This document shows, in pieces, positions 1,491 to 35,990 of a stretch of 64,000 nucleotides of DNA. Under the pieces are notes generated by a model. That model did no database searches and had not been told where the DNA came from. It saw only the letters and a program-made list of their open reading frames with translations. Position numbers and translations under genes: made by a program. The DNA lies in assembly GCA_000335735.1 (NCBI GenBank), contig AMYY01000011.1:1-64000 (forward strand), in the 5' to 3' direction. This DNA is from an alpha proteobacterium L41A (GTDB taxonomy: Bacteria > Pseudomonadota > Alphaproteobacteria > Caulobacterales > Caulobacteraceae). Every line of letters begins with the position of its first letter. Positions within the stretch are counted from its first letter, which is position 1.

Positions 1491-2861
1491 CTAGGCCGCC
1501 GCCGACTGCGCCACCCGCCCGGCCTTCAGCCGCTCCGCGACCAGGAAGGCCAACTCCAGCGCCTGGTCCGCGTTCAGGCGCGGGTCGCAGTGGGTGTGAT
1601 AGCGGTTGGACAAATCATCCTCTGTAACCGCCTGGGCGCCGCCGATGCACTCGGTCACGTTCTGGCCGGTCATTTCCAGGTGGACGCCGCCGGGGTGAAC
1701 CCCTTCCGCCTCGGCCACGTCGATGAAGGTCCTCACCTCGCCCATAATCCGGTCGAACGGCCGGGTCTTGTAGCCATTGCCGGCCTTCAACGTGTTGCCG
1801 TGCATCGGATCGATGGACCAGATCACCTTGCGGCCCGAGGCCTTCACCTCGCGCATCAGCTTGGGCAGGCGCTCGCCGACCTTATCGTGACCGAAACGCC
1901 CGATCAGGGTCAGGCGTCCCGAGACATTGTCCGGGTTCAGGGCGTCGATCAGCGGCAGCAGATCGTCGGCCGTCATGGTCGGTCCGCACTTCACGCCGAT
2001 GGGGTTCTTGATCCCCTTCATGAACTCGACGTGGGCGCCGTCCAGCTGACGCGTGCGCTCGCCGATCCACAGCATGTGGGCCGAGGTGTCGAACCATTCG
2101 CCCGAACCGCCATCGAGACGCGTCAGAGCGCTTTCGACGTTCAGCAGCAGGGCCTCGTGGCTAGTGAAGACCTCGACCCGGCTGAGATCCGGATGGGTCT
2201 CAGGCGTAACGCCGACCGCCTCCATGAAGGCCAGGGCCTCGGTGATCTTGTCGGCCAGCTCGCGGTACTGCGCGCCGGCGGCGTTGTCGCCCGCGAAGCC
2301 TAGGGTCCAGCGATGGATGTTGTACAGGTCGGCATAGCCGCCGCCGGCGAAGGCGCGCAGCAGGTTCAGCGTCGAGGCCGACTGGTTATAGGCGCGGATC
2401 AGACGCTGCGGATCGGGCGCGCGCTCTTCCGGCGTGAATCCCATGCCGTTGATGATATCGCCGCGATAGCTGGGCAGTTCGACGCCGTCGATCTCTTCGA
2501 GTGGCGACGAGCGAGGCTTGGCGAACTGGCCCGCGATCCGCCCCACCTTAACAACCGGCTTGCGTCCGGCGAAGGTCAGGACGGCCGCCATCTGCAGGAT
2601 CAGGCGGAAGGTATCGCGGATATTGTCGGTCGAGAATTCCTTGAAGCTCTCGGCGCAGTCGCCGCCCTGAAGCAGGAAGGCGTCACCCCGCTCGACCTGC
2701 GCCAGCTTCGACGTCAGGCGCCGCGCTTCGCCGGCGAAGACCAGCGGCGGCAAGGCGCGCAGCTCGTCTTCCACCCGCGCGAGGGCGGCAGGATCCGGAT
2801 AGTCCGCCGGCATATGCAGGGCGGTCTTGGTTCTCCAGCTTTCGGGGGTCCAGCGTGTCAT
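1491..2861 (-). CDS. aroG: 3-deoxy-7-phosphoheptulonate synthase, class II
   Basis: First enzyme of the shikimate pathway: condenses phosphoenolpyruvate and erythrose 4-phosphate. At 456 aa it has the plant/actinobacterial class II length rather than the 350 aa of class I. Diagnostic segments are [13 protein letters not shown] (metal-binding Cys) near residue 65, [16 protein letters not shown] near 105, [11 protein letters not shown] near 345 and [15 protein letters not shown] near 395. Start is the ATG at 2861; no Shine-Dalgarno is visible and a 7-bp inverted repeat sits directly upstream. First gene of an aromatic block with pheA and chorismate mutase. Confidence 0.95.
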
Positions 2862-2868
2862 CGCGCAA

Positions 2869-2890
2869 GAATAGGACTTCGCGCCTATTC
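2869..2890 (-). promoter_or_regulatory. Inverted repeat just upstream of the DAHP synthase start
   Basis: GAATAGG-N8-CCTATTC, a perfect 7-bp inverted repeat whose inner edge is 7 nt from the ATG at 2861. The minus strand also reads TTGTTT-N16-CTATTC here, a possible promoter that would leave an almost leaderless mRNA. It could be an operator or a translational hairpin; only the repeat itself is directly seen. Confidence 0.35.
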
Positions 2891-2927
2891 AAACAACGAA
2901 AAGCCGGGAGGATTTTGCCGCGAAATG

Positions 2928-3068
2928 TCAATCTTCCGAAGAAGGCGACTTTTCCGCCGCAGCTCCAGCCTTGCGTTCGGCCTTCGCCGCCGCCTTCTCG
3001 GCCGCCTTCAGCGCTGCGGCGCGCTCGCGTTCCTGACGCTCAAAGCTGTAGTTGGGTTTGCGAGCCAT
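2928..3068 (-). CDS. Small basic Lys/Ala-rich protein (46 aa), unknown function
   Basis: Reads MARKPNYSFERQERERAA then a Lys/Ala-rich helix ending in EKSPSSED. I chose the ATG at 3068 because AGGACG lies about 6 nt upstream; a longer in-frame extension exists but is Arg/Thr-rich and looks non-coding. The composition (R/K/E/A with no hydrophobic core) suggests a single charged helix. I know of similar short proteins in Caulobacter relatives but cannot assign a role. It precedes the DAHP synthase by 66 bp on the same strand and might be co-transcribed with it. Confidence 0.65.
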   Translation of the reverse strand: MARKPNYSFERQERERAAALKAAEKAAAKAERKAGAAAEKSPSSED

Positions 3069-6562: not shown

Positions 6563-7915
6563 ATGACCAGCCAGACGCGCGCCCGCGCCGCCATCATTCT
6601 CGCCGCCGGCCAGGGCACGCGGATGAAATCGCCGCTGCCCAAGGTGCTGCACCCCGTCGCCCACCGCGCCATGCTGGACCACGCCATCGATGCGGCGGAA
6701 GGCCTTGGCTGCGAACGCATCGTCGTCGTGGTCGGCAATCACTCGCCGGAGGTCCGGGCCCATGTGGTGAAACGGCTGGGCGAGGCCGCCATTGCGGTCC
6801 AGGATCCGCCGCTCGGCACCGCGCACGCCGTGCGCGCCGCCGAACAGGCCCTGGCCGGCTTCGACGGCGAGGTGGTCGTCACCTATGGCGACGTCCCCCT
6901 GCTGAAAGCCGCCGACATCGAGCCCGTGTTCAATGCGGACGGCGTCACAGTCATCGGGTTTGAGGCCCGCGATCCGGGCGCTTATGGCCGTCTGATCGTC
7001 GAAGGCGACACCTTGACCGCCATCACCGAGGCCAAGGAGGCGTCGGCCGAGATTCTCGCCATCACCGCCTGCAACTCGGGCGTCATGGCCGCGCCGGCCG
7101 GCCTGCTCTTTTCCCTGCTGGCCGACGTGAAGAACGAGAACGCCAAGGGCGAATACTATCTGACGGATGTCGTCGCTCTGGCTCGCCAGGGCGGCCACCC
7201 GACCCGCGCCGTCTTCGCCGCGGAGGACGCGGTAATGGGCGTCAACTCCCAGACCGAGCTGGCTCAGGCCGAAGCCTTGTTCCAGAGCGTGCAACGCGAC
7301 ACCTTCCTGGCGGCCGGCGTGACGATGGCGGCGCCAGAAACCGTTCATTTCGCGTGGGACACCCAAATCGGCGGCGGGGCCGTCGTCGAACCCTTCGTGG
7401 TCTTCGGCCCTGGTGCGGTCATCGAGGGCGGCGCGCGTATTCGCAGCTTCAGCCATATCGAGGGCGCGCGGGTCGCGGCCGGCGCCGAAGTCGGTCCTTA
7501 CGCGCGCCTGCGTCCCGGCGCGGACCTGGCGCCCGGGGTCAAGGTCGGCAACTTCGTCGAGGTCAAGAACGTGAAGATGGCCGAAGGCGCCAAGGCCAAT
7601 CATCTGGCCTATCTGGGCGACGGATCGGTCGGTGCGGGCGCCAACGTCGGCGCAGGGACCATCTTCTGCAACTACGACGGCTTCAACAAGGCGCAGACCC
7701 AGGTCGGCGCCGGCGCCTTCGTCGGATCGAACTCCAGCCTGGTGGCGCCTGTCGTCATCGGCGACGGCGCCCTGATCGCCTCTGGCTCCGTCATCACCGA
7801 GGACGTGCCCGCCTACGCCATGGCGTTCGGTCGCGCCCGCCAGACCGTCAAACCCGAAGCGGCCGCGGCCTTCCGTGTCGAAGCCAAGGCGAAGAAGGCT
7901 GCGAAATCCAAATGA
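6563..7915 (+). CDS. glmU: Bifunctional UDP-N-acetylglucosamine pyrophosphorylase / glucosamine-1-phosphate N-acetyltransferase
   Basis: Makes UDP-GlcNAc for peptidoglycan and LPS. The N-terminal uridylyltransferase domain opens with [19 protein letters not shown] (residues 12-30); GDVPLL (about 112) is the metal-binding segment. The C-terminal half is a left-handed beta-helix with hexapeptide repeats and the acetyltransferase segment [20 protein letters not shown] near 352-371. Length of 450 aa is normal. Its TGA overlaps the ATG of rpiA (ATGA), so the two are translationally coupled. Confidence 0.97.
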
Positions 7916-34973: not shown

Positions 34974-35771
34974 ATGGGCGCAATCTCCAGCCGAGCGCCC
35001 CGCCTGATGCCCGCCCAACCGCCCCCCAACGACGACCTGCGGCGGTTCTCCGACGTCCTTGAAGACCTCGGGCACGCCCCAGAACCCAAGCTGACCATGG
35101 CCGAACTGGTCGCTTCGTTCGGCGAGCGCGGATTCGGGGCCATGATCCTGATCCTGTCGCTGCTGGCGCTTTTGCCCTGGCCGCCCGGCGGCAAGGCGGT
35201 CTTCGCCGTACCGATCATCCTGATGTCTCTGGAACTGGCCTTCCAGAGGCAGAGCGTGTGGTTGCCGCGCTGGATGTTGAAGGCTTCGGTGTCCCGCGCC
35301 GCCTACACGTCCTTGATCGCCACGCCGTTCGCAGCCCCCGCCTGGCTACGCCGCTGGGTGCTGTCGGCAAAGGTGCGGATCGCCGGGCGCTGCTACATCT
35401 TTTCCGACGGCGTGAGGCGCGCCGTTCGCAGACGGCCGAATGGGCTGAGCGTCCTGAAGATGGTCCGCGCCATCGAACGCTTGACCCGCCCGCGCCTGCC
35501 GCTGCTGACCGGCGATGTCGCCGACACCTTCACCGGCTTGGTCTGCGTCGTGTTGGCCCTGATCATGGCCTTGCCCATTCCGTTCGGGGACGCTTTGCCC
35601 GGCATCGCCCTGGTTCTGTTCGCCCTGGGCATGATGCAGCGCGACGGCGTCGCCATCCTGCTCGGCGTCGTCGCGACGGCAGCCAGCGCCCTCTATCTGT
35701 TCCTGATCTGGGCGACGGTGGTCGAGGTCGCCCAGCACGTGACCGGCTGGTTCGCCAAGCTGCTGCACTGA
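34974..35771 (+). CDS. exoD: ExoD family membrane protein
   Basis: 265 aa. Members are linked to exopolysaccharide synthesis and alkaline tolerance in rhizobia; the molecular role is unknown. Signature pieces are MAELVASFGERGFGAMILIL (about 42-61) and ALLPWPPGGKAVFAVPIILM near 65-84, then RPRLPLLTG and four C-terminal hydrophobic segments (FTGLVCVVLALIMALPIPFG; ALPGIALVLFALGMMQRDG; AILLGVVATAASALYLFLIW). An in-frame ATG 33 nt downstream is an alternative start. A terminator follows 8 nt after the stop. Confidence 0.88.
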   Translation: MGAISSRAPRLMPAQPPPNDDLRRFSDVLEDLGHAPEPKLTMAELVASFGERGFGAMILILSLLALLPWPPGGKAVFAVPIILMSLELAFQRQSVWLPRWMLKASVSRAAYTSLIATPFAAPAWLRRWVLSAKVRIAGRCYIFSDGVRRAVRRRPNGLSVLKMVRAIERLTRPRLPLLTGDVADTFTGLVCVVLALIMALPIPFGDALPGIALVLFALGMMQRDGVAILLGVVATAASALYLFLIWATVVEVAQHVTGWFAKLLH

Positions 35772-35778
35772 CGGCGAC

Positions 35779-35811
35779 AAAAAGGGCCGCCGGGTTTCCC
35801 CGACGGCCCTT
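35779..35811. terminator. Bidirectional terminator between exoD and the short ORF
   Basis: AAGGGCCGCCGGG pairs with CCCGACGGCCCTT (one mismatch) around a short loop. The T-run (TTTTT) is on the minus strand, so it mainly ends the minus-strand transcript carrying the 21-codon ORF at 35858-35923, and ends exoD less efficiently. Confidence 0.85.
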
Positions 35812-35857
35812 CATTGCCTGACCGCGCACGGTCCGGCCGCAACTCAGTCTGAAAGGC

Positions 35858-35923
35858 TCAGACCAGACCCTCTCCGAGGGCCAGGGTCGCGGTCGCCGCT
35901 CGCGATTGATGACAATGAGACAC
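35858..35923 (-). CDS. 21-codon ORF with extreme ribosome-binding site (leader peptide or small protein/sRNA)
   Basis: GTG at 35923 to TGA at 35858-35860 encodes 21 residues beginning MSHCHQSRAA and ending LALGEGLV. The region just upstream, GAAAGGAGGTGATCCAG (35923-35939), is complementary over 17 nt to the 3' tail of 16S rRNA. The ORF is followed 47 nt later by an intrinsic terminator and preceded by a good promoter, so it forms an isolated unit of roughly 180 nt. The ORF RNA also contains a GACCCT...AGGGTC stem. It could be a small protein, a regulatory leader, or an RNA whose function is the 16S-like pairing. No family recognised. Confidence 0.5.
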   Translation of the reverse strand: MSHCHQSRAATATLALGEGLV

Positions 35924-35939
35924 TGGATCACCTCCTTTC
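35923..35939 (-). promoter_or_regulatory. 17-nt perfect anti-16S-tail ribosome-binding site
   Basis: GAAAGGAGGTGATCCAG is the exact complement of the universal 16S end CTGGATCACCTCCTTTC. Ordinary Shine-Dalgarno pairs are 4-8 nt. The core GGAGGTGA can pair with TCACCTCC at 35953-35960 across a 17-nt loop, which would hide the site if that stretch is transcribed. Confidence 0.7.
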
Positions 35940-35960
35940 GACTGTTGAACAGGGAGGTGA

Positions 35961-35990
35961 ATCATAAGACCGCTCAACGGCTTGCGCCAA
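35961..35990 (-). promoter_or_regulatory. Promoter of the 21-codon ORF
   Basis: Minus strand TTGGCG-N18-TATGAT, the best sigma-70 type match I see in the window. Predicted start near 35954, inside the left arm of the repeat that pairs with the ribosome-binding site; the arm is transcribed in full only if start is a few bases earlier or transcription comes from flaF. Confidence 0.55.

Follow-up and report, generated by a model that had tools for sequence, protein, structure and literature searches.

The closest described relative of the element analysed here is CC2171 (Rfam RF01867), a known but uncharacterised family that is typed as a Caulobacter sRNA, and for which Rfam 15 gives one additional covarying base pair (PMC11701678). 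The element shares the P1 helix and the terminator of this family, but it also has a second predicted pairing, P2, between the Shine-Dalgarno (SD) and start region and an arm at the end of a short open reading frame (ORF), and this pairing of the SD with a downstream arm is absent from the RF01867 consensus as cmscan displays it. Like the element, MH_s33 of Mesorhizobium huakuii 7653R is annotated as RF01867, and a 215-nt RNA-seq transcript is reported for it in passages that discuss neither its function nor a 16S match or an ORF (PMC5596092).

Two further systems are comparable in part. In Staphylococcus aureus, extended SD pairing toward the start codon strengthens start-codon selection, with only about two extra start-proximal pairs seen by cryo-EM on ordinary mRNAs (PMC13009471), whereas the element is predicted to pair with the whole 16S tail and is a putative stand-alone RNA with an unconstrained peptide. 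The dual-function sRNAs rnTrpL/peTrpL and Spot 42 are regulatory RNAs from which a short ORF is translated (PMC10117765), as is proposed for the element; their peptides are functional, whereas here the borders of the ORF are kept and the peptide is not constrained.

In the window, which is the whole stretch of 64,000 nucleotides that was analysed, cmscan matched the element to RF01867 at full length (model positions 1-159) and at 95.6 bits, above the gathering score of 75, an identity missed by the original prediction. As read from its sequence, it is a predicted stand-alone RNA of ~165-175 nt with its own promoter and terminator, and consists of the following parts:

35784..35947, minus strand: whole RNA, RF01867 (CC2171), full-length cmscan match
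35985..35990, minus strand: -35 box TTGGCG, read from the sequence, 18-nt spacer to the -10 box
35961..35966, minus strand: -10 box TATGAT, read from the sequence
35953..35960, minus strand: TCACCTCC, promoter spacer DNA, probably outside the RNA, varying in relatives
~35955-35947, minus strand: expected transcription start, exact position predicted (the RF01867 model starts at 35947)
35940..35947, minus strand: short A/C-rich leader CAACAGTC, from column information of 55 clusters (class-wide consensus YCAACAAC)
35923..35939, minus strand: 16S-complementary stretch GAAAGGAGGUGAUCCAG, by comparison with 16S CUGGAUCACCUCCUUUC
35858..35923, minus strand: short ORF of 21 codons, MSHCHQSRAATATLALGEGLV, from GTG (35923-35921) to TGA (35860-35858), with frame and stop position kept and the peptide not
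35911..35918, minus strand: 5' strand of P1, UCAUUGUC, immediately 3' of the start codon (Rfam consensus pairing, own-versus-swapped test, centroid structure)
35811..35818, minus strand: 3' strand of P1, GGCAAUGA, immediately 5' of the terminator (same three lines of evidence)
35845..35856, minus strand: candidate P2 arm CCUUUCAGACUG, starting 1 nt past the stop codon (minimum-energy fold; class-wide arm test with controls)
~35779..35810, minus strand: intrinsic terminator (hairpin followed by a U-run), bordering exoD on its 3' side
34974-35771, plus strand: exoD, convergent with the RNA

Much of the original prediction can be read directly from these coordinates: the promoter TTGGCG-N18-TATGAT (35990-35961), the 17-mer GAAAGGAGGTGATCCAG complementary to the 16S tail (35939-35923; also recovered by genome search), and the GTG, 21 codons, TGA and subsequent intrinsic terminator are all present on the minus strand. 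Its proposal of an independently transcribed, stand-alone short RNA agrees with the predicted promoter and terminator, and 30S engagement is plausible. The features within its interval, 35858-35990, are real, but the interval ends at the stop codon and omits the 3' half of the RNA and the terminator. It had further proposed that the upstream TCACCTCC serves as a masking arm; this octamer, which is not conserved, falls in the spacer from the -10 box to the expected +1, and while the SD does appear to be maskable, the actual candidate for the masking partner is an arm that lies downstream, where the ORF ends. The core observation of a 16S-complementary short-ORF element is real, and ribosome engagement, though tentative, is its best supported reading.

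A separate feature of the same region is an inverted repeat around a single central nucleotide, CTGTTCAACAG (35952-35942, minus strand), which lies between the promoter and the SD, is retained in many Brevundimonas relatives and could be an operator or a part of the leader.

The 3.1-Mb genome contains the 17-mer at two places, this site and the 3' end of 16S read in antisense. A 21-nt version of the pattern (GAAAGGAGGTGATCCNRTGTC, up to two mismatches) was found in 101/385 Alphaproteobacteria, mostly as a single match each, and the reversed control in 1/385, which places the 17-mer far beyond chance. Allowing for at most one mismatch in a sample of the phylum, 34/63 Alphaproteobacteria and 0/136 other Pseudomonadota had a match, and a scan of named genomes yielded at least 119 stretches; among the matches listed (80), all those named below class level were alphaproteobacterial, with Rhizobiales, Sphingomonadales, Rhodobacterales, Rhodospirillales, Acetobacterales, and Caulobacterales represented. 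Searching with the RF01867 model across the genus and order gave hits in 57/101 genomes at E ≤0.001. Loci from Methylobacterium, Bosea, Roseiarcus, Rhizobium, and Falsiroseomonas also scored above the gathering threshold, so that 'Caulobacter sRNA' is too narrow a name. Most of the scanned loci beyond Caulobacterales score below this threshold, and no other Rfam family reached its gathering score at the sites in further orders. The range of RF01867/CC2171 is hereby extended, on the evidence of sequence, to the class Alphaproteobacteria.

The common core of the family can be written as GAAAGGAGGUGAUCC-N-RUG, and its match to 16S is exact over 15-17 nt. Across 55 clusters, the first 14 positions (0-13) of GAAAGGAGGUGAUC were nearly invariant, the rare interior changes being A to G and wobble-preserving, and complementarity to the 16S tail is kept class-wide with this wobble-tolerant change. 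At an ordinary start, GAUCC need not be paired to within one base of the start codon; that all 14-15 nt are invariant here therefore suggests a state with the entire 16S tail paired.

The genomic neighbourhood is far less constant. In the window, flaF/flbT lie upstream of the RNA (FlaF and FlbT were confirmed next door), and the original prediction had raised a link to flagellar regulation from this position. Neighbours of the flaF/flbT type recur only among Brevundimonas loci and were not found beyond the genus, other genera having other neighbours, and no neighbour was common to different orders; a flagellar regulator linked to flaF/flbT was consequently rejected, the neighbourhood being a genus-level property. 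Second genomic copies were likewise considered and rejected. The weak RF01867 hits seen in Brevundimonas (~27-40 bits) have no SD; 11 of them coincide with the end of a single conserved coding sequence and its terminator and five are terminator hairpins alone, the terminator part of the model scoring by itself. They are accordingly false positives, and the RNA looks single-copy.

A stand-alone RNA with its own promoter and terminator in a mobile neighbourhood could be a dual-function base-pairing sRNA, in which translation of the ORF would control folding or lifetime, the loops would pair with mRNAs, and ribosome binding would be a control input only. Some Caulobacter sRNAs do pair with other RNAs on Hfq (PMC12559287). 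However, no seed is conserved class-wide, the 16S match being the only class-wide invariant segment, and this alternative is considered rather unlikely, if worth keeping in mind. The same invariance could point to a regulator or chaperone that acts on the 16S 3' end in an antisense-like manner, pairing with pre-16S or with the tail of idle 30S subunits and affecting 3' maturation, assembly or quality control, with the ORF being secondary: the complementarity extends beyond the canonical SD to one base before the start codon, which is more than an ordinary SD needs, the complementary stretch is the most conserved part of the RNA, and in 105 genomes the exact 15-mer was confined to 16S loci and these RNAs. 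Such a regulator accounts neither for the conservation of start codon and frame nor for the way stop codons are exchanged, and is judged to be quite unlikely.

Ribosome engagement, as the preferred reading, involves the start codon and frame directly, and their conservation was evaluated with some care for how loci had been retrieved. Most of the class-wide loci were retrieved with RTGTC as part of the pattern, and the conservation of the start codon among them is biased by this selection; less biased are the loci from a search without a start-codon condition and the Caulobacterales loci that were fetched with the Rfam model. The unconditioned search, run over 105 genomes, took the 15-mer GAAAGGAGGTGATCC alone, with six free positions and one non-T base after it. 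It gave 30 sites, 21 of which were 16S genes in antisense, while the other 9/9 had RTG at offset 16. The Caulobacterales loci had RTG at offset 16 as well, apart from one with RTG at offset 15.

The end of the ORF is kept as strictly as its start. A frame-0 stop at codon 14-36 was present in 96% of 55 clusters, as compared to 29% and 29% for the other two frames. Stops fell after 18 codons in 30/32 sphingomonads (over all 32: 16 TAA, 15 TGA, one TAG) and in 17/17 Rhodobacterales (eight TAG, seven TGA, two TAA), and after 14 codons in 7/7 Bradyrhizobium, with TAA, TAG, and TGA swapped within clades at an unchanged stop position. Start, frame, and stop position are thus preserved through synonymous exchange, which is the pattern expected of a putatively translated ORF.

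No comparable signature was found for the peptide. Variable columns amounted to 91, 97, and 89 at codon positions 1, 2, and 3 (180 columns each, 11 clades), so that the third-position excess of purifying selection on a peptide was not seen in these 11 clades; peptides are unrelated from family to family, and in one Brevundimonas clade codons 2-5 are frame-shifted and then restored while the P1 sequence CATTGTC is kept. Given the stop position and its exchange on the one hand and the equal codon-position variation on the other, the frame and its end are selected and the peptide is not, and this suggests that the reading frame is kept for translation rather than for the encoded product. The RNA probably works by engaging ribosomes, not by making protein. 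Of the parts that the original prediction had proposed to compare in relatives, the 17-mer is near-invariant over its first 14 positions and the frame is kept, while neither the upstream arm nor the peptide is, and its option of a highly translated small protein is not borne out by the codon-position test.

The perfect SD and the fixed start and stop would also fit the mRNA of a functional peptide, and a small-protein gene does seem to exist in one place: in an Azospirillaceae-like lineage (L078, L081, L174) the ORF codes for 56-59 aa, with a secreted-looking product and a signal-peptide-like start, and the differences between L078 and L174 (10/4/26 by codon position) show third-position bias. 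This product had no Pfam match. A real small-protein gene seems to have occupied the site there, and a peptide function is possible in this lineage. For the family as a whole, the missing codon-position bias in 11 clades, the unrelated peptides and the frame-shifted Brevundimonas clade make a small-protein gene improbable. One of the three Azospirillaceae-like loci is from Azospirillum and the others are from two related genomes, with the L174 ORF at 6773-6952 (plus strand).

The RTG found in 9/9 unconditioned sites also bears on a further alternative, namely that the GGAGG tail of the RNA sequesters sRNAs bearing the anti-SD motif CCUCC. Anti-SD-loop sRNAs are known in Alphaproteobacteria, e.g. 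BbsR14 of Bartonella (PMC7717549), and RNA sponges are known in Caulobacter (PMC12559287). An exact 16S match of 15-17 nt, however, exceeds what a CCUCC motif needs, and the RTG that follows it in all of these sites also speaks against a sponge; such a role is highly improbable.

The predicted structure adds a possible switch to ribosome engagement. P1, already part of the Rfam consensus, pairs the bases just 3' of the start codon with those just 5' of the terminator (CAUUGUC/GACAAUG), and in other clades takes the forms CAUCGC/GCGAUG, CAUGGUUCAGC/GCUGACCAUG, and AGUGAG/CUCAC. Over 57 clusters, the duplex energies of own strands were lower than those of swapped strands (-13.3 vs -11.2 kcal/mol, p 5.5e-5). 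For P2, the complementarity between arm and SD exceeded that of shuffled arm regions (mean z -1.23, p 3e-8), and the further controls of shuffled SD (p 7e-10), other strand (p 1e-8), and upstream DNA (p 1e-7) agreed, with the reservation that shared ancestry is not fully removed in these cluster and shuffle tests. The free base N15 covaries with its partner in the arm (28/53 clusters vs 18.1 expected; 0/5000 permutations). In 85% of clusters the arm starts between +40 and +75, where a uniform distribution would give 32%, and its end lies at a median of 11 nt before the stop codon; the arm was placed by best complementarity, which makes its position less sure for weak cases, including the Brevundimonas cluster of the window. 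Column conservation is low outside the SD and start, the strands of P1, and the arm.

In the window itself, the cluster concerned scores weakly in the class-wide arm test (z -0.58), and the arm is for this reason proposed mainly from the fold. In the minimum-energy fold of the window RNA (z -4.2), the P2 arm is used and the SD is hidden, with the arm pairing with CAGUC-GAAAGG on the SD side and crossing P1, while in the centroid structure P1 is formed and the SD and start codon are free. Although a short ORF with alternative structures resembles an attenuator, a role as attenuator or leader peptide for a gene downstream is mostly refuted and its probability close to negligible: the next gene, exoD, is convergent and the RNA ends at its intrinsic terminator in the window, leaving no dependent gene downstream as the original prediction had noted, and downstream genes vary in identity and strand across orders.

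The preferred reading is a ribosome-responsive switch that acts via ribosome engagement and senses and/or buffers free 30S subunits, a tentative proposal that falls somewhat short of an even chance. Here, the 16S tail and the internal arm would compete for the same SD bases, with the SD paired to its own arm in the closed state and to the 16S of a free 30S subunit in the open state. A ribosome that initiates and reaches the stop codon would cover or open the arm, leaving the site open for the next 30S, while P1 closed behind the start codon could hold a 30S on the full tail duplex without initiation. The output would be either the capture of ribosomes as such or a stability of the RNA that depends on ribosomes. 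I infer 30S binding and translation from sequence anatomy, and the sensing or buffering output would be a further step of the same kind.

6S RNA mimics a promoter for RNA polymerase. The element has no homology to 6S RNA, and the likeness is an analogy only, lying in the mimicry of a central machine's substrate, which here would be the ribosome binding site. A bolder version of ribosome engagement makes the element a ribosomal counterpart of 6S: an ancient, class-wide mimic of an ideal start that would capture free 30S on a 15-17-bp duplex and, by means of a peptide-independent mini-ORF, would report ribosome availability through the SD/arm switch; this is possible, though on the unlikely side.

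In a Caulobacter ribosome-profiling and annotation paper, intergenic ncRNAs are described as untranslated in general, with two earlier-predicted ones being translated (PMC4117421), and this statement was counted against the ribosome-engagement model. A search of open-licence literature found no paper on the arm, on the borders of the ORF or on the match to 16S, none showing 30S binding or translation of the RNA, and nothing relevant on the 16S-complement string, the peptides or a ribosome-decoy sRNA.

These results suggest that an uncharacterised Caulobacter sRNA family is an alphaproteobacterial RNA, the most conserved part of which is an exact mirror of the 16S tail. Ribosome engagement, if true, would couple gene control directly to ribosome availability through an RNA, in a class to which nitrogen-fixing symbionts, photosynthetic bacteria, and the cell-cycle model Caulobacter all belong, and would make the SD, the stop codon, and the arm clear targets for mutation in laboratory strains.

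Two minor observations were made at other loci. In another genus of the same family (L097), the RNA lies ~1.2 kb from the tmRNA gene (1353-1529 and 2723-3021), and a Whalefall-1 RNA match above the gathering score was found in Inquilinus limosus (L159, 7753-7804).
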